NCBI GenBank assembly: GCA_020744425.1
Contig: JAGMUV010000031.1
Coordinates: forward strand, 310,001 to 374,000
From: Dactylonectria macrodidyma
Taxonomy: Eukaryota > Ascomycota > Sordariomycetes > Hypocreales > Nectriaceae
Length of the DNA: 64,000 bases
Reading direction: 5' to 3'
Part shown: piece after piece, positions 2,494 through 37,300 of the stretch
Layout of the letters: each line of letters begins with the position of its first letter
Position numbering within the stretch: position 1 is the stretch's first letter
Notes under the pieces: model-generated
Databases searched by the model: none
What the model was told of the DNA's origin: nothing
Seen by the model: only the letters and a program-made list of their open reading frames with translations
Made by a program: the position numbers and the translations under genes

Positions 2494-3840
2494 CTAATAC
2501 CAGTCGAAATAATGCCCACTATCATCGTCAACGTCCTGAGAATCACCCTCCGGCCGTGGGATTCCGATTAGACCCATCCCATTCTCATGCAGAGGCCGTA
2601 TGAGTCCTTGACGCAACCAATTGCCCGTACATTCAATCAACTCGATAGTTTTGCATGTGATTCGTAATATATCCCATGAACAAGTTCTTCTTGCCCCAGA
2701 AAACGTCCTCTCCGGCTCCGATGACTCTGCTGGGATAGAAAGAATGCAAATAGCCATGCGGCTAAGTTTCGGATACCGGTACTGCTTTCTCTGCTGTGGT
2801 TGACACCACCACTCCAGAGGCGTACAATCCGGAGGGATATCTGTGCATCAACGTTGATGAAGCTAGTGAAATCATCCCTAACACTCGCGTTTATAGTCCT
2901 AACCTCCAGCTTCTTTCATAGTATCGCGAGTTGATTTGGCTTCTTTGCCAGCGGTGGTGGCATCGACGTGGGGGTGGAGGGATGGTCGCTGGGTTGCTCG
3001 TAATTAAATTCCTTTTGCCAGAATGCTGTGGCCGAGGCAATAGTATCTTCATGCCATTCCTTTGGCCAGTTCTGCTTGATATACGCGATGGGTTTACGGG
3101 GATCAAGAAGGAGAGCGGCGGCGTATACGGGAACCTCGTCAGTTAGGCGGTAGTACTTAGAGAGGACAAACCATCCCATATCGATGGCTCGAACCATCCG
3201 TTCGTCGGAGTGTTCAGACTGATATATCTTCTGATACAATGTTAGTAATCGACTTGATGTGGATAGATTGAAGGGTACCTGTTGTTCTTCGTAATGGAGT
3301 AACAACATATCCATCCATCAGCATCAACAATTGTGAGATAAACGAGCCATCTCCCTCTGCATACAATGTTGCTGAAGCAAATGGCTGAAGAAACGTATGT
3401 GCTTTGCCTAGCAACTCCCAACCTCCAACTAATAGCCGATTATCTCCGATGGCCTCTTCGTGATCAGACATGAAGGACTGGATTTTGTCCTTTTTTCTAA
3501 TCGCATGATCAATGACCTGATACCAGGACGACCAGTGGGTACGATTATCCATCCCTAAACGCAGTCACACTGCCTTATCCCACGCATTCTGGTGGAGGCT
3601 TGATGACCTTAGCCACACAGCTAAGCCATGAAGCTTGCGTAATGCAGGGACATTCTCAACGCCGCTAAAGTCGTCAGCCGATATCACGGACGTATTGCTA
3701 GCCGTGCTGCCCTTGCGCTTGTGCTTTCTCGCCAGCTCTCCGTTCTTTCTCTTTGCTGTATTTCGTTCGGCGGCAGCCTTCTTTCGATGACAGGCTAGGA
3801 CCTCGGAAAACTGGGAGAGAAGCTCCTCTCCTGTCAGGGC
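2494..3840 (-). pseudogene. hAT transposase relic (C-terminal half)
   Basis: Three minus-strand pieces in different frames follow the order of a hAT transposase. At 3840-3570 a lysine-rich piece ends in RKLHGLAVWLRSS. At 3552-3214 comes MDNRTHWSSWYQ, the equivalent of the DN.TRW motif. At 3314-2916 there is a LLDPRKP segment. At 2757-2640 a dimerisation-domain piece reads LSIPAESSEPERTFSGA. Stops and frameshifts separate the pieces, so no working protein is possible. The N-terminal BED zinc finger and the first catalytic part are absent. The family assignment is good; exact ends are uncertain. Confidence 0.75.
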
Positions 3841-4270
3841 TGGTTACACACAAGGGAGTGAAGAGGGCAGACACGCTGCAAGATAGCAGCTAGCTAGTAG
3901 GGATGATACTGGTGACTGTATTGATCTCTGACCCCCTTTTTGCCTTCTTCCTCTAGTAGCTCTTCTTATAGCCAGGTCTAGTATCCCTCCTTCCAATACC
4001 CTAGCTAGCTAGCTGTAGCTTAGCTGCTTAGGTCTAGCTAGTTTGATTGGTCTTCTTAATCCTGAGACTCCGGCCCGGCCGGGTCTCTCGTAACCCGGTC
4101 GGAGCTCTCGGATCCGGCCGGTTGCGCTTAGCCCGTGTTTCATAACTCCCTCAGCCACTTGCTAGCTGAAAGCTAGCTGTGGCAAACCTGCGATGTAGCT
4201 GCGACCTTGTGGCTGTTAGGCGCGGCCGCCACTGTGTGACGGTGGATTTCTGCAGTTAGGGCCCCATAGA
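3841..4270. repeat. Low-complexity spacer, AGCT-rich
   Basis: The stretch contains CTAGCTAGCTAG runs near 3890-4040, then a GC-rich block of CCGGCCGG/CCCGGTCGG motifs at about 4070-4135. I see no gene. It separates hAT debris from pogo debris and may include the decayed ends of either. Confidence 0.4.
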
Positions 4271-4276
4271 CCCTTC

Positions 4277-4873
4277 TTGTGGCTTTTGGCCTCTGACACC
4301 TATTTGGGCTCGGATGATACACCAAAGACCATCCGCCAAATCCGTGATCTTGGCAGGAACAAGTCTCCTGGAAGTCGAAAACGATATGCTGTAATAGCCA
4401 GAGGCTTTGAAGCCCAAGAACAGGCCATTGCAGCACATGCCGGCAGAATTACTAGTCTGGAGGAAGAAGTGGCTCGTTTGAAGAGAGGGAAGAAAAGAAG
4501 AGCGATTCCTAACCCTAACAGACGGATTATGGCACTCGGCGAGGCTCTGATACAAGATAAAGCTATTCCCGAAGTTGGAGATCAAGGAGCGTCTATTTTG
4601 GTGGATTCTGAATCGGAGAAGGTGGTGGTCTCAGACACGGAGACAGCTTCAGAGATTGAGGTCACGGCCGCACCTGAATCTCCTCAAATAACCACCAGGT
4701 CTGGGCGGCTTGTAAAGAAGCCTAAATAGGAATAAATACTTCAATTCTCTACAGAATGATATATTTTTTATGTTTATAGACTCAAAATTGGATTGAAATC
4801 GAGTTGGCATAAAAAGTAGATTTTTGGTGGGAAGGCGATTTTTTTGGTGACCGAAAGGGGGGTGGTGCATGGT
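4277..4873 (+). pseudogene. pogo transposase C-terminal fragment with element end
   Basis: From about 4295 the frame reads SDDTPKTIRQIRDLGRNKSP and continues to a stop at 4729. It is clearly homologous to the tail of the pogo transposase at 49857-50627, sharing DTPKT..IRDLG.NKSP, FEAQE, TSLEEEV..L.RGKKR and AIPNPN. The DNA-binding and catalytic domains are missing. Downstream, an AT-rich tail leads to a block ending GTGGTGCATGGTA at 4873. This resembles the terminal repeat of the complete pogo element (..TACTGCATGG|TA), so 4873 is probably that copy's 3' end. Confidence 0.75.
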
Positions 4874-4909
4874 ACGTGCCAGACACTTGCGTCGACACAT
4901 CCACTGGCA

Positions 4910-5180
4910 AGTTGTCGACCTAGCACCGATACACAAATGCAGACATTGAACAAAAGATCAGCGTAGATTGAGGACTAAAAACCTGAGCTCCCCCTATCTC
5001 AAAGGAGCGACGAAAGTCGGTCTCTTATACCTGTGTTCAGTCTGCCGATCTCATAGGCACCAGTCGTTAGTGGTGGTGTAGCTTTCACGCTGACCGTGAA
5101 GCTATTCACGATGGTTGTGATCCTTGCCCTTGACATCCTCCAACAGTAAGCGAAGGTCTCCGGAGCTTGACACAAGTATT
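4910..5180 (+). repeat. Relic of MULE terminal region
   Basis: Two blocks match the MULE derivative near 52.2-52.5 kb in the same order. TGTCGACCTAGCACCGATAC at about 4913 matches 52237 onwards. CAACAGTAAGCGAAGGTCTC near 5140 matches about 52500. The sequence between them is diverged. This is an old copy of the same terminal sequence. A pogo fragment abuts it here, just as a pogo element sits inside the better-preserved copy. Confidence 0.6.
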
Positions 5181-6097
5181 GTATGTTAATGCGGAAAATC
5201 CTGACCGTATCGCTAAGATTTAGCGTGCTAGGTACTGTACCGATTCTAAGCCAGGTTGGCTGCGCGACCTGACGATATTGCTCCAATCAACCTATCGATT
5301 CTAATGGGATAGATAAGCCATGAAACAACGTCCATTGAGGGAAAGGATAGGTTCATCCTTAGCCCGGGTCGTCACGAATGGAGAACCGTAGTCTTCGCGT
5401 CATGGAGTTCACCATCCAAGAGACTGAAAATCAGGCAACTGTTCATGCGAAGTTGGAACGGTGCAAATTGTCTCCAAGCATCCTGGAATCGTCAAAGAAA
5501 CCACTCTATTTCTTGTATGTAGTAAGTGGCTCGATCTACTGCGACGCAGTGTTATTGGAGACGAATACAGAGAGGATTGCGGCGTATGCAGCGGAAACAA
5601 CCATCATCTCCAAATTGGACGCCCTCAACATTACTGTCACTAGGCATGCAAATACCACGATGGAAACCGAGATGTCACGGCATCACCCTGCCAACTGCAC
5701 GTGACCCACACTCTGTACATATCATTCGCCCATTGTGGCATCTCCATACTTCCTCCCTCAAGGCACAACAGGAGACGCAAACCGCAGGCGGTCTGCCCAG
5801 AAGAGCCTTGAGGAACGAAGTTAGAGACGAAAATCGGTCGACATACCTTAAGCAAATTTTATCATTTTCAGCTGACATGAATTTAGTTGAAGCAAGATCG
5901 GCAGCTCGGCAGTTATAGCGTCGTTGCAGGCTTGACTGTAGGTGGGGTGTGATTGGCATGTCGAGATCATGAAACATATCTCCGGCTCTCTATAAAACCT
6001 CATAAAAACCTTAATAGCAACCCGGGGTGGAGTCATGTTACTAGCACTCACTCTCCTGAAAGCTTACGATTAGAAGTATTGTAGTCAATTCATTTAA
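5181..6097. other. Unassigned region
   Basis: Short open frames occur on both strands. None is convincing. A minus-strand frame at 5977-5675 contains a cysteine cluster (CVSCCALREEVWRCHNGRMI followed by CTECG) that could be a zinc-binding relic, but I do not recognise the family. A string near 5803-5835 resembles the reverse complement of 22375-22415. I see no promoter or RNA gene. Confidence 0.3.
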
Positions 6098-6637
6098 TTG
6101 CAAGATATAGTATCTATAGCCCTCTCCCATATCTTAAACATAGCGACGTGCCCGGTTCGGTTCCAATTTTCCTGCAATAATATCCCCGAAGGTCTGAATT
6201 TTACTCACAAGATTTCAAAGAGTCTCATCAGGCCCCTATCCCATGCCCGGCAAGATGACTCATACGCCTATCGTTTTCAATGTGCAGTGCTGCCTTTTTT
6301 GAAAGAACACGAACCGGTTTGCTGCGCAGCGTCTAATCCGTTTTGCGGAATTTGCGGATCACCTATCGCAACCGTTCTGCAGACGCCAATGTCCTTTCTT
6401 CACAAAGAGGGTGATCCCTACGTTGGGGTTCTTATCAGCGGCGTGTGTAGGAAAGGCGAATGCGAAAGCCAGACGCGACAAGCCATCCAGGAGGAGATGT
6501 TCGAAGTTAGGGCAGGGGCCGAGGCTCGGGTGGGAGCCGTAGTTTGCGCAGTGTGCGGAAAGATGGAAGGGATCAGGAAGTGCGGGCGGTGCAAAGCTGT
6601 GGCATACTGTGGCAAAGAACACCAGAAGGCAGATTAG
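6098..6637 (+). pseudogene. MYND-type zinc-finger protein, truncated in its finger
   Basis: The frame holds a cysteine-rich segment (CCAASNPFCGICGSPIATVL) and then a MYND finger beginning CAVCGKMEGIRKCGRCKAVA and continuing YCGKEHQKAD. MYND fingers are protein-interaction zinc modules that normally continue with a Trp, His and final Cys. Here the codon expected to be Trp is TAG (6635-6637), and the following in-frame residues read KTYRGAC, with Tyr where His is usual. Both changes are single transitions, so the last zinc ligands are lost. The upstream start is uncertain. An unrecognised splice around the stop is possible but I see no good sites. Confidence 0.6.
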
Positions 6638-8103: not shown

Positions 8104-10081
8104 CTATAGATTTTGGGTATGCCAAAGGTACCAACAATCTCCATCAATACATAGCGGTACGTTACAGTCTAAACATCCCTTTCGAGTCCTTTTTCGCTGT
8201 TGCGGCTGCTGAGTGAGGCTATTCCCAGATATGTCGCCTAGAGCCTGGCGCCTTAATGCTTTCCTACTACCGCAATAGGAGCAAGGTGAATTAGCCCCCC
8301 TTGATCCCTTGCGATGGTGCTGCCAAGGAATAGACGTTTTCCTCTTATCTGAAGCCCGCTGAGGTCGTGAACGTCTTCGACCTCCTGCTAATGGTCCAAA
8401 CTGTTGAATAAGCTGGGATGCAAGCAGTCGCCGCCATTGGTACTGGTTCTTGACCTTTTGCCACTCGGGCTTGCCCCAGAGCTGCAGGAAGAAGCTATTC
8501 ACAACGATCACTTCTAGCAGGAAATTCCAAGCAAGGGCTTGCCAGCCTCCTCGACGAATAGGGCGGCTGTATTGATAATAAGACCTCATCTGGTCACTTA
8601 TATCAACCCCATTCATCTTATGGTTATATTCGTCAATTGCCTCAGGCACCGGGAGGTTTTTCCGGACGTCTGGGCCGAAGGCTTCTTTCCGGGCAGCCCG
8701 CTTTCCAGCAGAGCTTCCGGCCGGCCGGCGCCGGAGACGGATAACCTCCCGGCCGTCTCGGAAGACGGTTGTCAAGAAGAGGACAAGGGCGTTATCCTTC
8801 CAGGTGAATTGGTTGACCTATGAAGAGACAAATTGATCAGTATGGAGATATCTATAGAAAGCAGTTTGCAATACCATACCTCCCCATCTAAGGTAGGGAT
8901 GCAATGGATCTGACCCCAAGGAATACCCTGGCCTTCTGCTTCCTTCTCGGCGATGAGGATCTTATCTATCCCACTGTCTTTCCGGCAGGTCCCGGAAGCT
9001 CCGACCTGCTGCTTCCGGAGGGCCCGGAGAAGCCGTACGGAAGCAAAGAGATTGTCTAGGAATACGTGGTAGACTGCAGCCGGAAGTAGGGTAATAAGTG
9101 TCGTTACAACCCGTTGCGTTGGCGTTAACGGGTCCCACTTTGCGGCAGCTGCTCCAGCCTTGCTGCCTGCCGGCCGGGCCTGAGGGACTAGTCCGTATGG
9201 GCCCTTTCCGTGTACGTGCCAGAGCCACCGGAGGCAGTAGCCCGATTGGGCAAGGATCCAGACCTTGAAGCCGGTTGGGATCGGTTTCGTCGGTATTGTC
9301 GTCGTCTCTAGTGACCGGCCGGTAAATCGGACCATAGCCTCGTCAACGGTAAGGTCGGAGCCAGCCGTATAGAAGGAATCTCCGGTCTCTTGGATATGGG
9401 CCGACCATTCGTTAACCTTCCGATATATATCCGGCATCAGGTCCCCGGCTTGGGCGGGGGCCTGGGCCCGGGCCTGGCGTCGACCTCCTGACTGGCTAGG
9501 CTGGAACTCGGAGGTGTCAAAAACCCGGAGGTGTCGGAGTAATAGCTGAAAGCGGTTCCGGGATATAAACCGAGTAAATGGATAGATAGGATCTTCCTTC
9601 TCTGCTGTTGAGTCGACCAATACCTTGATATTTCAGATTCGCTATGTATTCCCATATAGATTAAAATACCTAAGAAAAGGTAAATCTCATCTACAGAAGT
9701 CTTCCGCCATACGTTCACTCTTGAAGTTCTAGCCCGGGGGCCTTCCTTAGATAGCGGCGCTGCATTCGTCCATTGCACCCACCGCTCAATAAGGCCCCGG
9801 GGAACGTACCGGAAGAATAAGTCAAGCGGGGCTGCCGGCAGCTCCTGTATCTCTCGGGGTCGGGCCGGCACGTCAAAGGGTATAAAGGAGCCCGCCGGCC
9901 CGCGCTCGACAGCCGGAGGTTCGTGGGGCCGGACTGTGCTGTTATCGCACCGCTCTGGCGTACAGTCGGCAGTGCAGGCGACGGCGAGGTCTTCCGGAAG
10001 GATCTCAACCACAATACAGCTCCGTACGGAAGCAACGGAAGCACCGGAGGCACTGGAAGCATCAGAATCACTAGAAGACAT
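8104..10081 (-). pseudogene. piggyBac transposase (DDE_Tnp_1_7), frameshifted
   Basis: Reading from the ATG at 10081 (MSSSDSDASSAS), the protein shows the N-terminal piggyBac region ending MGIHSESEISRYWS. The DDD core follows: D in TVDEAMVRFTGRS, D in HVFLDNLFAS, and D in NGVDISDQMRSYY. A C-terminal cysteine-rich domain closes it (CSYC.., then GCLDCNVPLC, then CWYLWH). A 62-nt intron at 8818-8879 splices cleanly (LDGE|VNQFTWKD). Near 9610 the frame changes by one base between YWST and TAEKEDPIYP. The only GT..AG pair there would give a 19-nt intron, too short to credit. All catalytic residues remain visible, so the damage looks recent. Transposase of this type cuts and pastes DNA in the nucleus. 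Confidence 0.8.
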
Positions 10082-10649: not shown

Positions 10650-13600
10650 ATGGAGAAGGAGAGTCTAGTCGAGCAGTTCCGTCGATGGGATGCGCGCAAT
10701 CGCGAGAACGTGGCGCTTGCCGGCTTAGGAATCCGTACATCGGCGGACATCTTCGAGGCTGCACAGCGGCAGTTCCAGGAGGCTAGGACAGAGAGAAACC
10801 CGGTGCGGCAGGGGACGGTCGACGCTTCGGCGCTATCGGGTCTGGGTATCCGGACGTCGGCGGTCATTTTAGAGGCGACGCAAAGAGAGTACGAACAATC
10901 GAGGGAGGAGAAGAGCTCCCGCCGGCAGCGGACTCGGAGGCCGACGGTGGCGTCGTCGGGGCGGGTCGCCGGTGAGACCGAGGAACCGGCGGAGCACCGT
11001 GCTCCTGCCCCCAGGCCAAGCCGTCAGCAGGGACGCAAGAGAGCGGGTCCTGGCGGGACCGACCAACCAGCGCCGAAGCGTACCAGAACTGTACGCCGTC
11101 GGGAGAGGAGCGAGACAGAGCAGGCGCAAGATCTCGCTAACGTCATGCGGGCACTGGAAGAAGAGTTCGCCGAGAAGGAGCGACTGTCTAGCCAACAAGA
11201 ATGGTGTGAGCCCGTGCCGCACGAGAGGAAGGTGAAGACGGTGCAGGACTTCTACAAGGCGTTCCATGACGTGAGGACGTTGCCGATCCTCACTTGTATG
11301 CTCTGTTACTGCAAGTATGGCAGGGCCGAGCTGGAGGATGTGGGGTGGGACCAGTGGACAGCAAGTCCCATCGAGAAGCGTGACAACTCTCCATTCAAGT
11401 GCCTCCGGTGCTTCCCAGTAGGGAAGAAGATTCCTGGGTGCGCGGACTGTTTGAGGCACCTTGAGAGAGGTGTGTTGTCTCCGGCAGCGCAGCTACACAC
11501 GCGGCTAGGATGCGAGCACATGTTTCCTGACGAGCTGAAGGGTCTCACCCCGGTCGAGGAGAAGCTGATTGCGCTGAACTCGTGCTACGGCTTCATCACC
11601 AAGTATAGCATGCCAGAAGGACACAGGCAGAGCGTAAGGTACCCGAAGCATATCAAGGGGCACATCACGGTATTCCCCAACAATGTGCAGGAACTCGCAA
11701 CAAACGTCCTTCCGCATCCGCTGCTGAAAGTTCTGGATGAGATCCACGTGTCCTGGCAGGGCGCAGAGAAACCAGCGCCGAGGAATCTCTCGGCATTGCT
11801 GTCGGTGCGGCGTCGGGTGGTGGAGAAGGCGCTTGTGTGGTTGAAGAGACATAATCCCCTGTATGCCGATATCGATATTGACAGGGAGGAATTAAGTAGC
11901 TGGGAAGCCCCGCCGCACGGCGTGCCTCCTCAAGTGTATGAGCGGTTGGAGCGGAACGAGCCCTCGGCTTGGGAGAAGGCACGAACAGGGCAGGTCGTCC
12001 CACCGACAGACCGCGGCCTGGAGGACGAGGGAAGTGTGGATATCCGAGAAGTCCTGGAGACGCTGGGCCAGGGGCACGATTTAGAGGTCAGCGGCAACGT
12101 GATGGTGGAGCCAGGCGATGCAGATGACGAGGATGGGGCCGGCGACGAGGAGCTCGACGGCGTCGCCGCCCCAGTTCACGAGATCAGCGCTTCCGGGATG
12201 TTCGCCGTCGATGGACGACCGGACGTCGCGGACGCGGAGAAGTTGCGATATGTCCGTGACGCTTTGGGTCAGCAAGGTTCCCGCGACGAAACGGGGCCCA
12301 GTACATTGGCAGGATCGGCCGAGGTACGGCATGGATACGCGTCCGAACCTTACGTTCTCATGTCAAGGGGTGATGACTTTGCCGATTCTTTTGAACCACG
12401 ATTCTTTGCAAAGACATTTCCGACGCTGTTCCCGGTCGGTAGCGGGGGTCCAAGGCAGGCGGAGGAGAGCACCGAAGAGGCGGCCACGGGGGTGGACGGA
12501 GGCGAAGTGGAGGCCCGGGCGCGGAGTCTCGTCTCGTCCCGGAACATGACGCTAGAGACATGGGCCAAAGTGTTACTCCAGCGCCACGGCGGCCGGTTCG
12601 CAACACATCACATCTTCGCATTTCTCGTCTTCAACATAGGAGTGAGGTCGAGAAATCGTCGAGCCAGCATGCTGAGCGTGACAAGGAAGAACTTCCCGGA
12701 TGTGGAACGCATTGTACACTCGCTAAGCCCGGAGAGGCTGGAGGCGGCCAAGGTCGACTTGGAGGCGACCGGGAAGACGGCCGACGAGGTCGTCAACCAG
12801 TTATTGAAAAGCCTGTCGCTGTACGGCTTTCGCCAGCCGATGTCGAGGGAGAGTCGTTTGAGCATGCGGCGAAAGATCAAGTCCGAGATCATTCGGGATG
12901 GCATCCCGGCCATCTGGTTCACGCTGAGCCCGAACGACATCACAAACCCGGTCAAGCTGAGGCTCGCTGCATATCGGACGAGGGATCCGGACGAAGCCGA
13001 GGCCTTCCTGACGAGCCTTGACCTGGCATACAAGCGGACACGGCTGGCGATCTCGGATCCCCTCAGCTCGGCAATCTTTTTCCACCGTGAAGTGTCCATG
13101 TTCTTCGAACACTACGTCAAGACGGGAGAGGACTCGGTGTTTGGGCGCATCAGCAGGTACTTTGGGGCCATCGAGACCAACGAGCGCGGGTCGCTCCACG
13201 TCCACGGACTCCTCTGGCTTCATGGAAACATGCATCTGAGTTCAATCCTGGAAGATGTCGAAGGGGAGGATCAGGCTGCATATCGGGAGAGGGTCATCCA
13301 GTACGTAGACAGTGTCTTCACGGAGGTTTGTTCGCCATAAATCTGCCGTACAGGACAATATTGTTTAACGACGTTGTAGGACCTCGATCAAGAGTCTTTC
13401 TCGACCACTCAGGCGGAGAGGTCTGTGACGTCGGACATATCGTCGCTGCTGGGGAACAGCCAGCAGTTCGCGGCCGCATTCAACGACGAAGCCAACTTCT
13501 GCGCCGGCGCCACCCAGATCCACACCCACAGCCCTACGTGCGTGAAATACTCCATTCAGGGACAAGGGAAGCATCGGAATCCGTGCCGATTCAAGGCGCC

Positions 13601-16600
13601 GTGGAGATTAGCGGAGAGGACGGGGTTTACGAATGATGGAGTGTTACAGATCCGGCGGACTCACAGCATGGTAAATCGATGGAACAAGTCCATAGCGGTA
13701 GGACTTCGACATAACCACGACATCTCATTCATTGCGACGCAGTGCAAAACCATGGCCATCGTGTTTTACGTAACAAATTACGCTACCAAGGTCGAGGATC
13801 CGGTATGGAAACGGGTGGCCGCGGCAGCAGATCTGCTCCCCGTCTTGAACGAGTCGGCCACTGAGAGGCAGTCGAACGAGGTCGACCGAGGCCAAAACAA
13901 AACGCGGCAATTCTTAATGAGGGTTGCAAACCGGATCTTCACGGAGCGGGCGTTGTCGCAGGTCGAAGTCGTTGCTCACCTGTTGGGCTACCCAACGGAG
14001 TTTGCAAGTAACCACGCCTGGGCGTTCCTGAATGTATCATCACTCTACTGGCATGTCTTCCGACGCTGGCGCCACCTGCGACGCGAGAGCAGCATGGAGA
14101 TGGCGGACGATCCGGTCGAGGAGGCGGTGCTCCTGGAAGAGGCCGGAGAAAGGATCTCGTTCGTGCAGGCATACCCGCACCGCGGCAGGCTCCTACAGGG
14201 GCTGTCACTGTATGACTATATGTCGATAGTCAAGTTGAAGCGAAAGGGCAAAGGCGCAGGCGCTTGGGGGGAGGTACAATTCGACAGGTCCTGGCCCCTG
14301 TCGCAGACGTGGGTGCAGGCGCTGCGAAAACCCAGCGACCATGCTGTCGTCTGTTTCGATGGTTACCTGAGTACGGACTTTAGCGACGAAGGCGAGGTCT
14401 ACTATAAGAGGTACGCAGTGAACACGCGAATAGCTTGACACGTCTTTCCGAAGGCTGACGGTGCTCTGGTAGGGCGGCAGTCCAGCATCTCGCAATATTC
14501 GTCCCGTGGGAGTCGTTCTTGTACGAGAGGTCGGGGGACATCAACGCCATCTGGGAAAGACGAAAGCAGACTCTGCCGCGGCGGATATCATTCGTCGCAA
14601 ACAACATCCAACTACTTCACCGGTCGGCCGAGGACGCGAAGCGCGATGCCAGGCAGTGGGCCGCCCAGTCCGGGGATGGAGAACCCGGCGCTGACGCAAT
14701 CAGACCAGAGTCGGATATAGGAGGCGGTCACGAGGGACCTGAGGCAGTATACCGCTCGGACAACGTCGGTACCGCAACGCGATTGCTAGATGTATTGAGG
14801 CAAGCGATAACAAAAAAAGAGATCACAGCCGGGTCCACCGAGATCACGACAATCGTACAACAGCTGAGTCGGTTCCAGCAGTCGGCTCTGCGTTCCACAA
14901 ACGAACTGCGCGGCACGATTGTTTCCGAGGGAGGGCCGAAGACATTGAGCACTCCAGAAGGGTCGTCTCTGGGGCCCTTGCCAGGGCAGGAGCGGGTTAG
15001 GTCCATCAAGTCGCAGCAAACGAGCGCCTCTAGAGAGAAAGAGAAGATGATTCAGGGAATACAGAGCCAGCCCGATAACAACACAACCGACCACAGCTCA
15101 GCTGTGTACAGCGTACTAAATGGCTTCGGGGAGCACGACGTCCATCTTACGGCTGCAGATTCGGAGGCCTCGGGCCTGTGCGTGGGCCCATCTGCGAGCA
15201 TCCAGTTTGGCCCGTCAACGTCGTTCTCCGAGACAGGGAGGCAGCTGGCCCAGTCGTCCACGCTCAACCGAGAACAGAGCATCGCCCTCCAGCTGATATG
15301 TCGCCAACTGGACCGCGTTTACCGCGACGAGAGCGGAACCTCTCAGCTCTGCCAATTTATCGGAGGTGAAGGTGGCACTGGAAAGTCGCGCGTCATCGCC
15401 ACCATCGCCGAGCTGTTCGCAAGCAAGGGAATATCGCATCGTCTGCTGGTAACGGCGACCTCGGGAACTGCCGCCGCGAACATTAACGGAATCACTATCC
15501 ATTCCGCCTGCGGATTCTCGAAAGATACAGCTCCGCGGGGAGGTCGGGGCGCGGACATCGACGGGTTCGCGGGGCCCAGCTCGGCAAGTCTCCGAGTCGA
15601 CGGGAGAAGCACAGCGGAGTGGCAGGAGAAATGGCTGCTGATCGTCGATGAGGTCAGCATGCTCGGCGCGCCGACCCTGTACATCGTGAACGAACAGCTC
15701 CGCAAGCTTCGGGGGCGTGCTCACGACTTCGGCGGGATTCCCATCGTCCTCTTCTGCGGGGACTTCCACCAATTCCGCCCCGTACAGGAGAGGTCAATCC
15801 TCCTCCCAAGTGCAGCCATTCCGTGGGACGAAGAAAAGTCGTTCAAGGCGGAGCAGAGGTACCAGCACGACACGGCGCACGCCCTATGGAACAAGTTCAC
15901 CACAGTTGTCATGCTACACGAGCAAGTCCGTGCCGCGGGAGATCCACAACTTCAGCAGGTATTGAAGCGGATCAGACAAGGCGTGCAAGACCAGTCTGAT
16001 GTAGATTTCCTGAACCGCGCGTGCTACAAGGAGGGCAGACGGATCCCATGGGAGTCGGGTATCACTGTGGTGACGCCGCTGAACAGAAACCGCTGGAACC
16101 TGAATGTCGAAGCGACACTCGCCTTCCAGAGGCAACGGCAGGGCCCGGTCCGAATTTTCATTTCTGAACATAAGTGGAAAGCTGGCCAGCCGACAGAGGA
16201 GGAAGCCATCATGATGCTGAGCCACGGGGACGACAGTGACATACCAGTGCCAGCCGTCTTCATCTTCGTTCCAGGCATGCCCGTCGTCATAAACAAGAAC
16301 ACCCACCAAGGCCTGAAGCTGGTCAACGGAGCCGGGTACACCGCCATGGACGTCATCCTCGACAAGGCGCATCCGGGCCACCGGATCAACGCAGAGATCA
16401 TACTGCACTTCGGCCCGCCGGCAGGGATCGTGCTATCATCGGAGACGACGAGGGATTTTCACTTCGTAGGCATGCCGGCCGGTACCCTCCTCCTAACGCC
16501 CATCAGCACCAAGATAGACTGTCAAAGGAAGCGTCCGTGGCAGAAGCACAGCGTCAGCCGGCGGGGGTTACCATGCGCAGCGGCTTTCGCCTGCACAGAT

Positions 16601-16894
16601 TACAAGGTGCAAAGCAAGACATTAGACCGAGTGGCGCTTGAAATTCGGGGGACGAGGACGACGAAGATCGACGGCGAGGCGGTTCCGACGCAATGCGACC
16701 CTTACAGCTTGTATGTGCAGCTATCGCGGTGTCGGACACTGGATGGCATCATGCTCCTATCCAAGGCAAGAGAGAGGGACTTTGTGGGCAATCGAGTGCC
16801 TGACGACATGGTCGCTGCTGAGGAGAGGCTGGAAAAGCTGAGCGAAGTCACTATTAGGGAAGCGGATCGTTGGGATTGGGGGGTTATGAATTGA
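10650..16894 (+). CDS. Helitron Rep-helicase (RepHel)
   Basis: Exons 10650-13325, 13380-14410 and 14473-16894 join in frame to 2042 residues without an internal stop. The introns are 54 and 62 nt, with GTTTGT..TAG and GTACGC..TAG ends. The N-terminus has two copies of a 39-residue repeat (GLGIRTSA at 25 and 64). Next is a cysteine-rich DUF6570-like region (about 215-430). The Rep nuclease has the HUH motif (H850-V-H852 in GSLHVHGLLWL) and the two-tyrosine YVTNY motif (Y1022, Y1026). A Pif1-type helicase has Walker A GEGGTGKS (1534-1541) and Walker B DE at 1628-1629 (LLIVDEVSMLG). These parts carry out rolling-circle-like transposition: nicking and ligation by Rep, 5'-3' unwinding by the helicase. 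All key residues seen are present, so the protein may be active. Confidence 0.95.
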
Positions 16895-17041: not shown

Positions 17042-17050
17042 GGTGAAAAG
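17042..17050 (+). repeat. 9-bp target-site duplication, left
   Basis: GGTGAAAAG abuts the left end of the RecQ-bearing element and is repeated exactly at 22348-22356. Confidence 0.9.
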
Positions 17051-17192
17051 TTACCTCAGCAAGCTCAGACCCTCTGCTCGGGCGGCGGCTATGCGCGCTT
17101 ACTAAAGCACGCTAACCCGAACGGGTAACACCTTCACAGAGGGCCTGAGCCCAATTTCCACATTTTTGGTGGCGTTGTCGTTCGCCGCTTTG
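17051..17192 (+). repeat. 142-bp terminal inverted repeat, left
   Basis: Identical base for base to the reverse complement of 22206-22347; divergence starts abruptly at both borders. It contains an internal small hairpin (ACCCGAACGGGT). Confidence 0.93.
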
Positions 17193-17381
17193 GAAGCTCT
17201 GTACGAAACAGAAACAGCTTAGTGCAACGGCCCTCTGGGGTGTCCCCCCGGGGAGAATAAAAACCTACCTACCTACCTTGTAATCATGCGCGTTCGTTCT
17301 TGCTCAACAGAAAACTTGCATGCGTTTGCAGTCAATTGTCAATTTGTGCCACCATTAATACATCTGCATACCACTCTAGAT

Positions 17382-19891
17382 ATGACATTCGAAGCTTCGT
17401 CCACTACGGCCACACCAGAAGGCAGCACGTCTGGCTCTTCGCTGCTGCCACCCGTCAACAACCACCGCAGACGATCACCCCGCTCAGATGCTGAGAAGCT
17501 CGATATTGTATGCAATTTTATGCGAAATGAGCTCCGTTGGGGTGTTGCCGACCTTGTCACGGCATTAGCTTCCTCTGAAGGTTCTAATAATACTCGTCGA
17601 AAGGCTGCATTCGTAGCAGCGGCCTACAAGGACTCTGAGGTCCTGAAGTCCTACTTTCGCGATGCGGATCAACTGTGGGGTGACGGCAGGCAGTCTATCA
17701 TCGAGGCGTTGGATCTGGGCGACAATGAGCTACGGAGAGAGGTGGAAAACCTAGGAACTATACCACCATTTAACAAGTTCGATCCAACCTCCAAGAATGG
17801 AGACTTCGACGCGCTCGACATGGACCAAACCCTAAATACGATACACAATGAGGCACCTCTGTTACTACAGCTTATCAGAGGCATCATGGCTCCTGAATCC
17901 CGGCGGAAGTATCAGCGCCAAAAAGAACCAGCTGCTCGAATTGTCGCCATCATATCAATCCTCTGCTTCTCGCAGCGCCAAAACACCTGTACCGGCTTTC
18001 AGACGAACCTAGGCCTCTACCTCCATTCTCAAGGTGTGAAGCGTCAACAGCTAGAGCTCCTCGGTCAACTCGGACTTGTCGTCAGTTACAACACCGTCAT
18101 CCGAGCCATCAAAGAACAATCAACTCGGGCTGCGGCACGAGTAGAGGGTATGGGGCAGAGTGACGAGGCCGTGACGTCGTACGATAATTTCGAGGTAATG
18201 GAAGGCGTCAAGGAGCAGCGGGTTGATCATCAAGGTACCTTCCATTCTGTGACGACGGGCCAGGTCATTCAAGGCATTGAAATACCGCCTGGTGGACTGC
18301 GACAAGATATGCTTGATTCTCAGGCGGAAATATGCGCCAGTGACGTCTTCCTGGCCCCCGGGAATCGGGATGACGGTATTAATCGTCAGGTATGTATTGA
18401 TCCATCATGCCCATGGCTTGGTGTTGAACCGTCTCGCAGTAGATATCACGATACTTTTCCTACGAAGCTATCAACACGATCTTCTCGAACGCCATCCCGG
18501 ACGCTGCAAAGAAGCAACGTCCAGCAATGCCCGTTGTCGATGTTCTCGAACCTGTCAAGACTGTCCATTGCTCCCTTGGTCCTATTCCTCATGACGAGAG
18601 CAGTAATGCTGGCAATATCCTGATTCTTGAGAATATCTTTCAACATCAATATCACCTACCCGATTCCGCCTTTGAGCATCGTTTATTCCTCATCTACGGT
18701 GACCAGAAGACCACGCAGCGGATTCGTTCGATCAAGCAACGCAGGGAAGAAGCTCAGCGGCCTTGCGACAGGCTACAATGGGCGCTGCCAGTACCGGCGC
18801 TCTTCCACCTCCGTATGAACTACCTCTACATGATATCCAGACTCCACTTTGGCGGTCCTGGCAGCGATCAATCCACGTTATATGACGCCATGAACTTCTG
18901 GACAAGGAAAAGGATCTGCAAATCCAGCGCTGATTTCTACGCCCTAGAGCAGCTGATCATCCATAGTTTCCAGGCTAGAGTGTGCGCTTTGCTCTGGAAT
19001 ATGCTTGCTCAGTCTGGGCAGGGGATTGGCCTCGAGTTCGAAGACATCGCTCGAATGCTGGCTATTCACGATGCTGGAACCTTCTCACAACTCTTGGATA
19101 GGATCGTCGATTCTTACGGCAAGTATGCCCGCTCGACTGATGACGAGGAGCTTCGGAACCACATCCTGTTCTTGCAGCACACTCAGACCTACCTGCTTCT
19201 GAAGTATTCAATCAAGCATGCCGATCTCGGCCTCTTGCGCCGAGCCATTGACCGCTGTTGTGTGTATTTCCATGGCTCAGGGCAATCGAGATATGCGTTT
19301 GAGATGCTGTACCTTCAGCGTCTCACGTCAACGCGTGCTGCCACCCCGGAATTACAACGCGCGATACTTGCAAACGGGCTTGTAAATCGCCAGGGCAAGG
19401 CGGATAGCTGGTATGAGACAGACAGGCTCGTGGAATTCCACAATGGCACTCTCAGGAAGCTACTCAACGCCAAACGTGGATCTTCTCTTACGCTGGATTA
19501 TCTCTTCGAGCACTGTGCTCTAAATACCGACTTCTTTGCCACTCTTGCCAAGCAGACAGAATCCTTTTACGGCATTCATCGGAGTAGCAAACATCCAGAG
19601 AAATCAGCGGAACGTGACATTAGGGTGATGGCTCAACGCTTATCGCACAGCGGGTCAATTGCTCTGCACAGTGGACGGACGGTTAAGCATAAAGCTACTG
19701 ATGTGTTGGCAGAAGGGGCAATGTGCATTGCCGGCAAATCGATAGCCAAGTTCAACAGAATGGCATGCAGCGTCGACTATGATTACTTGGAAGGAGACGA
19801 AGATGAACTGGGCGATGGACAGGAAGACGAAGATGAAATCGACGAGGAACTTGGCCATTTTTTTGCAGTTTATCATGCCGATGAGGAGTAG
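17382..19891 (+). CDS. DUF6589-like putative DDE transposase
   Basis: Two exons, 17382-18389 and 18443-19891, are joined by a 53-nt intron (GTATGT..GTAG) to give 818 residues. The join reads DDGINRQISRYFSYEAINTI. The frame stays open up to an ATG at 17286, but the extra 32 residues look non-protein, so I chose 17382. Conserved features include SYNTVIRAIKEQS, the acidic SYDNFEVMEG (D268), FHSVTTGQVI, and IYGDQKTTQR (D423, a GDQ-type motif expected of a second catalytic aspartate). Near the C-terminus, a segment reads SWYETDRLVEFHNGTL. The tail is acidic. I did not assign the third catalytic residue. In context it should act on the flanking 142-bp repeats. Confidence 0.8.
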
Positions 19892-19912
19892 AAGGGACTG
19901 ATGTCTCCTGAT

Positions 19913-21873
19913 TTATCTATCGAGTTTGAGCTTTCGGAGCGTTGCTTGAAGGCATGCGTCCTGTGTCACCTCGAGGACCTCCTTGCCGTACGCAGCTAGA
20001 TCACCCCATTCCCCGTTGACTGCGTGTGCTAATGAACCAATAGAAGTAACCGCTGCACCCGTTCTTGATATCATGTTTACAGCTTTATCTGGAAGGATAA
20101 GCTCAGCTGGTGCAGCTGTGATAAAGGTCGGAAATAAGGTGCATGCCGCCTTTGCATCTCGCCACTCGACCAAAGCCAACTTCACCGCTTCGGTGATGTG
20201 CTTTTGAGATTGAACGATCCTGACAGGCCTCCCAGCCTTGCTGGAAGGTATCTTGACGTCGTCCCCTGCGCATTTGCTACAGCAAGAAACTGCCTCTGTC
20301 GGACGAGTGCATAATGCGCGGTTTTCGCCGAAGAACCTGAGTATGCCTCGCCGGATGCAAGTTGAACGATTGATTAATTCCCATATGCCTCGTGGTAAGA
20401 CGGATCGCTTCTCGCGCTCCGTCATCCCCTTTTTGAAGGATCGAAGCGGCAAGTGTTCCATACTCTCCCCAAAACACCAGGCAGGAACTAACCAGACGAA
20501 CTTACCGCAGATTGCCTTACCCCGTGCAGCTCGGCCGGCACGCTGCAATAAAGCCCCCATGCTGGGTGGGACCCCCCACTGAACGACGAGTCGGATATCT
20601 GGATTATCAATACCCATTCCCATGGCATCTGTGGCGACGATGATGCGATGCATTGAGCTATCCAAGGCGCTCTCTGTGTCAGGCTTTTCGAACTCTGTGG
20701 ATATACGCCTCTTATCAGGTTCTGCAAGCTGTGAATGATATGCCTGGACGGCATTGATGGCTGCCGTCTTTGAACAGCCTGCCCGAACGAGTAGCGTTCT
20801 CAGTGCCCCGACCACCTTCATGATCCGCGTTATCGAGTCGACATAGACTATGGTCTTCTGAATTGTCTTGCAACAGGCACGACTGTCAGATCCTGCTCCC
20901 ATCCGTTGATGTCGAGTCCTTGTTAAGAGTGCTTGAGCAGCAGCTATACCGGCGCTTTTGAATGCCTCTCTTGCCATGCTCTCCCTTCTCTCCTTAACAG
21001 CCTGCTCAATTGCCGCCTGCACCGGTTTAACAAGGAACTCTAGATCGCGGAAACCGTCCATCCGATACTGAAATGCCTGAATTTCGAATGTTATGTTGGG
21101 TCTGTCAATGGAGGTTCGTTGAATGCGAACGGAAGGGTCGAATCCGCTGAGATCTCGAACCTCAGCCAGCGTAACTGGATCAAGCGTCGCAGAACATCCC
21201 AGCCAAGGCACAGACCTACTGATCAGATCTCGCAGCAAAGCCAATCCGCTGTATGAACTCCTCCAACGCAGACCCCACTCGCTGACCACGTGTAATTCGT
21301 CGATAGCCACCAATACGAGATGATCTTGAAAGGCCTGGTCGTATAGGACCTCCGTCTTGAACCTCTCTGACAATGCAATTTCTGGACTCAAAAGCACTGG
21401 GCCCCTCTGTTCAGCCGTGATGTTCGGTTGGCAACTGTCGACATGGAAGTCCTACCGTGCGTGTATTTGCCGATTCGGATCTCATTAAGCAACGCGGCTT
21501 TATTTGACTGGCCGTTTAATACGCAAGGCCTGCAGTTGGGTATTCGAGCAATGGACTTGGCCTGCGGTGAAGATCAGTTATTTCATTGTTTTCCCATAAT
21601 TGTCTATGTGTCTCGCCACCGACTAACCTGGTCCTCTTCAAGCAGATTCAAGGGCATAATCATGAGACAAATGCCGCCTCGCAAGGCCGGAATAGCTTGG
21701 AATACGGCACTCTTGCCCCATCCGGTAGGTGCAATCAGGATTAGGTCCTGCTGGTCGACAGCGAGTCTTCGTATTGCTTCTACCTGGCCGTCCCGGGGAG
21801 GGAAGTTGAGGAGGTTTGCCAATGTCGAGGGCAATGACTCAGGATCAGGGCAACACAATGGGGTATGTAGCAT
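19913..21873 (-). CDS. RecQ-family ATP-dependent DNA helicase
   Basis: Three exons, 21873-21628, 21561-21456 and 21396-19913, are separated by 66- and 59-nt introns and give 611 residues. Both joins restore helicase sequence: LLEEDQ|AKSIARIPNC and GKYTH|VLLSPEIALS. SF2 motifs appear in order. Walker A is APTGWGKS (48-55). The DEAH-like box is DELHVVSEWG (150-159). These are followed by GCSATLDP, IVATDAMGMGIDNPDIR and QRAGRAARG. A RecQ-type zinc site follows (CIRRGILRFFGE..C..CCSKC). There is no HRDC domain. It sits tail-to-tail with the transposase inside the same inverted repeats, suggesting it helps process replication or excision intermediates of the element. That role is inference. Confidence 0.88.
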
Positions 21874-22205
21874 CACGATCAGTAGCGGAGATTTCTATGT
21901 ATCCCCAACTATAATTTTCAAGAATAATTGAGGGCATCTTTGCTGTTGTCATGGAACGGGCTGGGCCGTTGATATATATTCGGCTAATGTCGATACCCTC
22001 GACGCCACTAAATGAAGGCAAAGCTCTGCGCAACCCCTGAGCTCGAGTATGTAGCTAGGTAGGCAGCTCCACGCGAGCAACTTGTTGGTTTCCAAGCACG
22101 CTTCTGGCTGAATAAGCCCCGTGCCCCTTTCATGTCAGGCGTACGAGTAATCAGTCGATGAAACAGATGTTGAAGATGGCGAATGATACTGCGTTTCGCA
22201 AATTA

Positions 22206-22347
22206 CAAAGCGGCGAACGACAACGCCACCAAAAATGTGGAAATTGGGCTCAGGCCCTCTGTGAAGGTGTTACCCGTTCGGGTTAGCGTGCTTTAGTAAG
22301 CGCGCATAGCCGCCGCCCGAGCAGAGGGTCTGAGCTTGCTGAGGTAA
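22206..22347 (-). repeat. 142-bp terminal inverted repeat, right
   Basis: Exact inverse of 17051-17192, followed directly by the second GGTGAAAAG at 22348-22356. Confidence 0.93.
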
Positions 22348-22356
22348 GGTGAAAAG
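22348..22356 (+). repeat. 9-bp target-site duplication, right
   Basis: GGTGAAAAG, identical to 17042-17050. Confidence 0.9.
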
Positions 22357-34307: not shown

Positions 34308-37300
34308 CAAGGCTCGGAACCACTACACCCACTCACATTTGGACCAAGTAGAGTGGATGTACGATTTTGTAGGCAATTACCTAGTGGATGTAATACATAT
34401 TCGGCCGGAGTGGAATGGACGTACACACGTGGATTTATAAGTGGATTTATAAGTGGATTTTTGAGGCTATTCACAACCTCGTCGGTGCCTATTCAGCCTC
34501 ACTTTCAGAGGTTGACACTAACTCTTCAGCCTGTTGCTGCTGTGATAAATCGTCAACCTCGCTGGCGCTGTCCTCGCCCTCCAATAGCCATTTTGACTCA
34601 GCAAGCGCCAGCTCGTCGTCGCTTAGAGTCGCAAAACCGGCATCCAGCTTACTTTCAACGTGTGACTTAAGCAATGGATCCAGGTCCTTGATAAGGCCAG
34701 CACGGTACCAAGAGCGTAAAACCTGACAAATGGCGATAATCTCAGCATCTAGGTCAGTTCGCAACCCCGAGATCATCTTGCCAGCAGCTGAAAATAACCT
34801 CTCACACTCGGCTGACATCGGTTGGATTGTCAGGAAGTCCAAGGCCATCCTGGATAGCCGAGGATATCTACTTTGCTTAGCGATCCAGTAACCAATTGGA
34901 TCACGAACGTCGCCGTCGCTGACCTCACGATCCGTCTGCCACGCTTGGTACTCATCACCAACAATAGCTGCTGCGGAGGTTGGTGTTGAGCTTGGCAGAC
35001 GGCTGTTCTTCTCGAAGGGGTTGAAAAACCGAGGTCTTTTTGCTGGTGGCTCGTCATCGCCTCTGCTGCTGCTGGATCTAACCTCGAAATGAGCGTAATC
35101 AGACAGCCAGACGTCGGCAACCATCTCTTTTGCCTTTGCAACCCAACTAGGCTTATGAGCCCAGGTTTCATCAAACCAGTCCCAACGATAAGCTGGATGG
35201 AGCTCTATTGCCGTATAGTAGATGGGCGTCTCGTCTAGCCGCCGATAATATTCATCCAGATTATCCCAAGCAAGGTTGATTCCGATGCGGAAGTGCTCGG
35301 GATCAGGAAAGTTAGCAGCAAGCTGCTTATATTCTTCCAGTGTGTTAAGCAGCAACTCATAGCCAAGCACCACGTCCCAGATATTGCCATAGGAGCCGGT
35401 CCAGCCTTGCTTACGCCTGCGGATGTGTCCATCACCCTCAAGCGTCTTTACCACGGTCTGAAAAACAGTCAGAATAGCCTCCAAATGGTAAAGAACCTCC
35501 CAGTCTTTATCCGTTAGCTGATTCTCGTCTCGGAGGATGCGTGGTTTTTTCGCCAATTTGGCTTGTGTCACTCGGCCAGTCTTTTTAGACCGATTTTCGT
35601 CCTCCCATTGCGCCTTGTACTTGATCAGTAGGAGTTCGATAGAGGTTTTTAGTCGTAGAGCCCTGCGGATCATGTAGAGTTGTGACAGCCAACGCGTGTC
35701 GTTATCGACAATTAGCTTGAGTGGTTTCTTCGATCGGAGTTTGAGGGTGGTGGCGCGATCAATTTCGTCCTGTTAGATATACCAAATTAGTATGAGACGA
35801 ACAAGATTTAGTGAAAACCGCTTACCCTCTGGACCTCCTTGAACAAGTAAATTAGCCGATGGCTAATACGCACATCAACTACGATGTTATGTAACTTGCC
35901 AACTGGTCCTTTTTTGCGCCATTGAGCGTATTCGGTATCAGATAACGCTTCTGCGCCTGATAATTGCTGCTCGAACGCGCCGGCTTTTTTGCCAAATAAG
36001 AGCGCCTTGGCTGACAAGTTAATTGTGTGGCCAATACAGCGTCCTCGGCGTAGTCGGCCATCGAACCCAAGTTCAGCACCAATAACCTCCATTGCAGTAT
36101 CGTTGTTTTCAGCATTGTCGAGCGTGAAATAGCCAATCTTCTCTGGACTTACGCCAAGAGTGAGTAGGACGTCGAGAACCTCCCCACCGATCGTTGAGCC
36201 GAAGTGACGATGAGCCTCTGGAACCCCAATCATGATTTTGCATGGTCTATTCTTCTCATCTCTGAAAAAACAAGCAATGCCGTAGAGGGCAAGCTTATTT
36301 CGAGACGTCCAGCCATCAAATGAGATATGAATCGCTCCAGGGGAGTTCCTCAGCACCTCGATAACCTTCTGCTTGTGGCGGTTATACTCTTGAATGATCT
36401 TATATCGGACAGTCCTGGCACTCAAGTTGGCGCGTTGGATCGAAACGGAGGGATTCAAATAGTCGAAGACTTCTCGGAGGATGGGGTTCTCGGCGAAGGA
36501 AAAGGACTGGTTGCTACTGACGATTAATTCGACTAGCATACGCTGAAAGTGTTGCTTATCAAAGCGTGAGATGAAGCTATTCGCGATATTCTGTTCCGTA
36601 GGCTTGTTGACGTCCAGTTTCAGAACAGAGGCAATAGTCGGCTGGTTCGATTTCAGTGCGCCTTCGGATTTCAGCTGCGCTGTGCTCTTTTTCTCTCCCT
36701 CTGGTGCTGGTGATTTGTGCTCACGCCATAGATGATATGCCGCGTTCTGGAGACCTGAAGAGGTAAAACTCGCGATAATGGGACGATTTCTGAGGACACA
36801 GTCCTTGCAAGCCCATTTGCGTAAGCCATGACGTTGAATATCATAGCCAAAGTCCCACAGCCAAGAGCTAGTATCACGAGCGCGTTCTGACCAAGTCCAG
36901 CCTCTGAAATGGCGAAAAAGCCGGTCTTCGAGGCGGTGCTGTTGGCCTGGCTGGTTGGCTGACATCGTCAAAAAATTATCTCTTGCAAAAACAACAGCAG
37001 GAAATCTGTTGAAAACGCCTCAATAGGGGCAGTTTCTCGTATGACGTTTATAAGATTAGCTGGGAGGGGGGATCGACCTTGGCTAACTTGGGTCTCGGTA
37101 CCTCGATTTACTAGGCAATTATATACAAAAATAAGTACTATGGGCCGTGCAAGCTCAGGGAATATCCCACTATACCTAAATCCACCTAAATCCACTCCAT
37201 TACATCCACTTTCAGGTCCGAATGTAGTGGATTATTACGTAAGCTGAGCGCGGCAAAGTGGATGTAATAGAGATGGGCCACTTATATGTGGTCCACGTGG

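Follow-up and report, generated by a model that had tools for sequence, protein, structure and literature searches.

A probably AcademH-like DNA transposon with a RecQ-like helicase in Dactylonectria macrodidyma

The element described here, a DNA transposon that pairs a DUF6589 protein with a RecQ-like helicase, lies within a 64,000-nucleotide stretch of the 77.3 Mb genome of the fungus Dactylonectria macrodidyma, family Nectriaceae (the window: positions 310001-374000 of the 718,612-bp contig JAGMUV010000031.1, here C25). Its nearest counterparts are found amongst helicase-bearing transposons. One of these, the AcademH lineage of the Academ superfamily, was reportedly described by Kojima 2020; the nuclease of the other Academ lineage is XPG. 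In PMC10045372, AcademH is presented as a helicase-bearing DNA transposon of Ascomycota, Basidiomycota and Mucoromycota that generates target-site duplications of 9 or 10 bp and carries a helicase where the other lineage has its nuclease, and its longer duplications are proposed to be related to that helicase. DEAD and Helicase_C domains are named for both AcademH and a second lineage, KolobokH, in PMC10799480. KolobokH, so far reported from fungi alone, has a RecQ helicase gene, whilst Kolobok duplications are the 4-bp TTAA; one rhodophyte Kolobok has a RecQ gene on the complementary strand (PMC9587614).

The initial annotation of the window had proposed an apparently intact transposon of which the helicase is a working part. 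Leaving aside the exact step that the helicase performs, the element is very probably an autonomous, recently mobile, AcademH-like helicase-bearing DNA transposon, and we consider it highly likely that the helicase is integral to it, because the pairing recurs in all 14 near-complete copies and in three families, the helicase is under purifying selection and it belongs to a separate clade. The further suggestion of an under-described system was overstated, as the helicase- or RecQ-bearing lineages AcademH and KolobokH are already in print.

Borders and genes of the element

The transposon occupies 17051-22347 of the window (5297 bp), with two spliced, open and convergent genes inside. Its features are as follows.

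17042-17050, no strand: left target-site duplication GGTGAAAAG, single copy in two empty sites
17051-17195, plus strand: left terminal inverted repeat, starting TTACCTCAG, with subterminal arms CTCAGACC from 17064 and GGCCTGAG ending at 17149
17196-17278 (limits approximate), plus strand: short repeat ending AAACCTACCTACC, with many genome matches to query 150-209
17382-18389, plus strand: transposase exon 1, holding candidate catalytic D268 (YDNFE)
18443-19891, plus strand: transposase exon 2 with stop, holding DUF6589 (PF20231) and candidates D423 (YGDQ) and E667 (RLVEFHN)
19913-21396, minus strand: helicase exon 3 with stop, holding the DELH box, Helicase_C and zinc-type cysteines
21456-21561, minus strand: helicase exon 2, placed by frame and splice sites
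21628-21873, minus strand: helicase exon 1, holding the start codon and Walker A (TGWGKS)
22203-22347, minus strand: right terminal inverted repeat, ending CTGAGGTAA
22348-22356, no strand: right target-site duplication GGTGAAAAG, single copy in two empty sites

Each terminal repeat is 145 nt long and the sole mismatch between them falls at position 143, leaving 142 bp perfect. Evidence for the borders comes from two uninterrupted places in the genome, on contigs C76 and C23, each of which carries GGTGAAAAG once. The joined flanks of the window copy, with one GGTGAAAAG kept, match C23 at 99% over 151 bases and C76 at 100% over 135 bases with an ungapped junction, and both places are identical to the window flanks at 60/60 positions on either side; all 26 candidates from the search with these flanks alone were scored. 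Because the empty sites match both flanks fully with a single GGTGAAAAG, the borders and the 9-bp duplication are exact, and the intact element of the initial annotation is confirmed, perfect 142-bp repeats, 9-bp duplication, open convergent genes and all.

The exon structure of both genes is predicted from reading frames and GT-AG splice sites. The transposase gene has two exons and specifies 818 amino acids without an internal stop. Its product matches the Pfam family DUF6589 (PF20231, E 1.9e-70), and the predicted structure of DUF6589 has an RNase H-like fold in which helices are inserted ahead of the last acid. Alignment A3 (81 rows, P0007 numbering) has candidate acids at D277 in 16/16, at D429 in 46/47 and at E672 in 47/47 of the filled rows. 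The earlier reading of this protein as a transposase is upheld, the prediction supporting a DDE (aspartate-aspartate-glutamate) transposase with an all-helical insertion as in the P, hAT and RAG enzymes. The likeness to the P element, hAT (Hermes) and RAG1/Transib lies in the predicted fold and the insertion; Pfam shows no sequence kinship between them and the DUF6589 protein, and to our knowledge those elements have no helicase. MuDR/MULE elements have long repeats and duplications of about 9 bp. When P0007 was compared with Pfam nothing besides DUF6589 was matched, the MULE transposase domain included, a lack of match that does not exclude MULE. No paper mentioning DUF6589 by name was found in the literature searched. 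In the third protein search the named matches were fungal only, with none from animals or basidiomycetes, but only 7992 candidates were scored, so this absence says little.

The helicase gene ends 21 bp from the end of the transposase gene and consists of three exons encoding 611 amino acids without an internal stop; several intron choices keep the frame and the one that fits RecQ relatives was taken. Pfam recognises DEAD and Helicase_C in the product, whilst the best NCBIfam match is recQ_fam (E 6.3e-44) at 150.5 bits, below the curated cut-off of 219.8. RecQ, WRN, RecQ5, BLM and RecQ1 top the 42 PDB sequences matched, and structure matches agree with a RecQ-type superfamily 2 (SF2) core. Following the core, three cysteines (C464, C489 and C490) are invariant and a fourth (C493) is nearly so in alignment A4 (25 rows), a cluster of putative RecQ-like zinc-binding type. 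No Pfam match to RQC or HRDC domains was seen at E<=0.001 in the window, L043 and P0061 helicases; some true RecQs also lack both domains. Across the scanned open reading frames (ORFs) of the element and the helicase model, the matches were DUF6589, DEAD, Helicase_C and a weak Cas3-like_C_2 only.

Copies, recent movement and retention of the helicase

A genome search for DUF6589 identified 22 places, 14 of them near-complete (at least 355 of 410 profile positions), and one for the helicase gave 39, host helicases counted in. All 14 near-complete copies, and 15 of the 22 places overall, have a convergent transposon-type helicase match at most 4 kb from DUF6589; a single helicase fragment, on C27, has no such partner. 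The helicase partner is damaged by a stop in L031 and L042, and L034 ends inside the gene. By sequence the copies form three families: A (window, L031, L033, L034 and L035), B (L037-L041) and C (L042-L046), and the helicase of the window shares about 46% identity with those of B and 35% with those of C. Both ends were found in 12 of the 14 near-complete copies (L034 and L037 each lack one) and all start TTACCTCAG and end CTGAGGTAA; short non-autonomous derivatives of 425-443 bp have the same ends. The genome therefore holds further copies with ends of the same kind from which the helicase is not missing. The family C helicases L043, L044 and L046 carry a C-terminal extension (851-873-aa frames), without a Pfam match in the case of L043.

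The closest copy, L031, also lies on C25 and shows a single difference from the window element in 5297 bases, which accounts for the L031 helicase stop. Its flanks are unrelated to those of the window copy and it has a duplication of its own, TGAATAGTC. Joined flanks were searched in the genome for three copies (window, L031 and L035) of the eight prepared, and L041 was compared with the L031 flank. Many uninterrupted places match the joined L031 flanks, three at 99% over 270 bp, in a joint flank search in which 40 of 170 candidates were scored; at one empty site the two 60-bp flanks each align in full, with an overlap of exactly 9 bp. Comparison of L041 with the paralogous L031 flank likewise gives a 9-bp duplication, and that of L035 with two sites gives 8 bp. 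The shared contig might hint that the window copy and L031 arose by segmental duplication, not transposition, but dissimilar flanks, different duplications and precise empty sites for each contradict this, and we give it practically no weight.

More widely, an exact direct repeat of 6-9 bp lies outside the TTACCTCAG...CTGAGGTAA ends in 16/30 pairs against 0/300 shifted controls. With two end pairs set aside (L033 1899-7624, which spans two elements, and L037 7706-8349, where the repeat contains the end motif), the duplications of the 14 retained pairs measure 9 bp in six cases, 8 bp in seven and 6 bp in one; at the ends of L038, L042 and L044 a duplication was looked for and none seen. Taken together, the empty sites, the duplications and the near-identical L031 indicate that insertion is precise and that at least one movement was very recent. 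Two nested arrangements were also observed. A 426-bp non-autonomous derivative immediately follows the right-hand duplication of the L033 element (both within L033 1899-7624); GATCAAGT is common to the two, therefore one inserted at the target duplication of the other. At L045 1250-7989, an inner family C copy with a ATTTGCTC duplication sits inside outer ends with TGATCAAG.

Ratios of nonsynonymous to synonymous substitution (dN/dS) were obtained by NG86, with helicase frames running from stop to stop and so including a few intron codons. For family A (window, L033 and L035), the transposase gave 0.14-0.16 and the helicase 0.20-0.30; in family B, the comparisons of L037 with the rest (dS >1) gave 0.095-0.106 and 0.17-0.21, and closer helicase pairs 0.27-0.31; in family C, L043 against L044 gave 0.11 and 0.20. 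Of the 15 usable helicase comparisons, 14 fall at 0.17-0.31, the exception being L043-L045 (0.525, at dS 0.007). Three L034 helicase rows (0.298, 0.464 and 0.222) were dropped. Amongst the transposase rows, L039-L041 (which overruns the stop, at 605 codons), L043-L045 (dS 0.003) and L033-L034 (dS 0) are weak, and three with the 272-codon fragment L046 (0.24-0.49) are of little worth. Across 13 elements or species, a set that includes L034 and an F. solani pair drawn from two elements (transposase L039-like, helicase L037-like), identity between transposases tracks identity between helicases (r 0.957, 0/5000 permutations).

In a tree of 37 rows, a branch with 97/90 support separates the transposon helicases and their fungal homologues (from Metarhizium, Fusarium, Ilyonectria robusta, Penicillium, Elaphomyces and Hygrophoropsis, with metagenome rows) from a side with four RecQ genes of the host, three of which are Sgs1-like, as well as two bacterial RecQs, one contig-end helicase and two rows from metagenomes. 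The program issued a long-branch warning for this tree, its only telomere-type row is partial and sits on a very long branch, and its 22 homologues were chosen among 120 listed of 206 helicase matches. Fungal telomere-linked and Sgs1/BLM-like RecQ helicases have the RecQ-type SF2 core in common with the transposon helicase, but are host genes and stand apart from it in the tree; the transposon helicase does not group with them, the point on which the initial annotation had sought a phylogeny. In at least three cases (5085, 4877 and 4867 bp) transposase and helicase homologues come from contigs equal in size and source, which suggests that each pair sits on the same contig. The Sgs1/BLM-like RecQ genes of this genome number three (L047, L048 and L049); L049 stretches across two frames, of 926 and 616 aa, and is perhaps no longer intact. 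Helicase frames of putatively telomere-linked type lie near the starts of C35 and C60 (L051 and L052; bases 3600-6200).

These data bear on whether the helicase is instead a captured host RecQ, a passenger outside transposition. Gene capture by transposons occurs, RecQ paralogues are present in the genome and the family A helicase has a higher dN/dS than its transposase, yet a passenger would have to have accompanied all 14 near-complete copies across three families as diverged as B and C, under purifying selection, whilst grouping with the Metarhizium, Fusarium and I. robusta homologues and splitting from the host Sgs1-like genes; we consider this very unlikely. A second alternative, that the helicase aids survival in the host, for example in element replication or in countering RecQ-linked silencing, and not transposition, deserves more weight, though we still think it improbable. 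PMC4522978 ties fungal RecQ helicases to posttranscriptional gene silencing, and the selection data are compatible with either role; the strict association of the two genes and their divergence in parallel better fit one shared reaction, whilst leaving room for this alternative.

Fold-back ends and the possible role of the helicase

A typical terminus begins with TTACCTCAG, followed by CTCAGRCC starting at 13-15 and by its inverse ending at 74-104. Within the range searched, this second subterminal arm is present in 23 of 30 distinct termini and in none of the other seven. The predicted folding of the window end has a z of -3.0, and 24 ends span -0.8 to -7.2. Beyond the motif, arms of the same terminus match each other better than swapped arms (72.0 against a mean of 48.6 over 12 unlike termini, 0/20000 permutations), the window (5.0 against 4.5) and L033 (3.0 against 3.5) not being outstanding. 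Across the 23 arm pairs, 75.4% of cells are paired against 64.6% when shuffled (0/500), two-sided changes affect 29 cells against 12.7 and covariation is 0.314 against 0.155 (each 0/500). Neither the pairs with a two-sided change (6/9; shuffles average 5.3 and 208/500 reach it) nor the pair types (12; 409/500 reach it) exceed chance, and relatedness among termini inflates the arm-pairing counts. The covariation offers support for maintained pairing, short of proving a hairpin. No fold-back end design of such elements was found in print in the literature searched.

The arms might instead be two transposase-binding sites in opposite orientation that never form a hairpin, a reading to which we give only slightly less than an even chance. 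CTCAGRCC is nearly constant across all families, several of the pairs adjoining it fail (8/23 at pair 6-27, for example), and neither the count of two-sided pairs nor the window arms stand out. That the arms vary in step beyond the motif, and that own arms beat swapped ones over unlike termini, is harder to reconcile with binding sites, although shared descent can inflate both measures.

Transposition could proceed as follows. In each end the transposase would bind TTACCTCAG at the terminus together with the inverted CTCAGRCC/GGYCTGAG pair, which spans some 60-90 bp. It would cut with D268/D423/E667 and, through staggered cuts, join the element to the two target strands at points 9 bp from each other in a cut-and-paste reaction. 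The helicase would open the foldable ends, remodel the transposase-DNA complex or clear the gapped strand-transfer product, and its action would allow cutting, exit from the complex or the repair of gaps to be completed. Opening or remodelling of the ends is the role that we would favour, whilst the proposal that the helicase acts on the ends at all is tentative and well short of even odds. Processing of replicated or hairpin intermediates, as first suggested for this helicase, is plausible, and covarying fold-back ends fit it. It is doubtful, and less probable still than action at the ends, that the ends are covarying DNA fold-backs which the element needs its own RecQ-like helicase to open or resolve, unlike the known helicase-free DDE cut-and-paste systems.

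Kinship, surroundings and significance

Judged by descriptions and not by transposase sequence, the element probably belongs to AcademH, a helicase-bearing Academ lineage having been named at the outset as the possible closest relative. By the account of AcademH in PMC10045372, the likenesses are a helicase beside the transposase, a 9-bp duplication (from empty sites for the window copy and L031, and from the paralogous L031 flank for L041), no nuclease among the Pfam matches of the scanned ORFs and helicase model, and a fitting fungal host range. The duplication sizes differ in part: 7 of 14 are 8 bp here and 1 of 14 is 6 bp, where that account gives 9 or 10. We know of no fold-back ends as a feature of AcademH. 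KolobokH is likewise a DDE transposon of fungi that carries a RecQ helicase (PMC9587614), but the 9-bp, non-TTAA duplication excludes this identity and the helicase of the window element is a separate convergent gene, so that KolobokH is left with a negligible probability.

Several observations concern the surroundings. The repeat ending AAACCTACCTACC occurs at many genome places (L019-L025) and, in the window copy and L031, immediately internal to the left end; it is probably a truncated LINE (long interspersed nuclear element)-like 3′ tail lodged there. About 150 bp upstream of the element end Helitron-like genes (Helitron_like_N, DUF6570 and PIF1 helicase; window 10650-16894, plus strand), and the element may have landed in a Helitron or beside one, its flank being repeated on C23 and C76. 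Other transposon genes or remnants in the window are of IS4 type (DDE_Tnp_1_7, 8772-9620, minus strand) and a hAT dimerisation region (34489-35673, minus strand). Over 4123 bases L034 and L033 share 99.7% identity, after which L034 is cut off inside the helicase; both are on C25, each encodes the D. macrodidyma protein P0195 at 100%, and L034 adjoins the repeat family into which L031 inserted. A chimeric origin for L033/L034, considered from a helicase-frame dS of 0.08, was dropped, as the stop-to-stop frame of L034 includes foreign residues past its break. C25 itself is repeat-rich, holds 4 of the 14 near-complete elements plus one fragment, and is possibly an accessory contig.

Helicase-bearing transposons are already published; what is added here is an intact member, a helicase kept by selection, covarying fold-back ends and a likely function for DUF6589. 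That uncharacterised Pfam family would be the DDE transposase of helicase-bearing transposons, and through the fold-back architecture a possible task of the helicase is tied to the ends. Two nearly identical copies of recent origin, each with its empty sites, stand here beside three diverged families and small non-autonomous derivatives that keep the ends, so that this one fungal genome allows the question of why some DDE transposons carry helicases to be tested.

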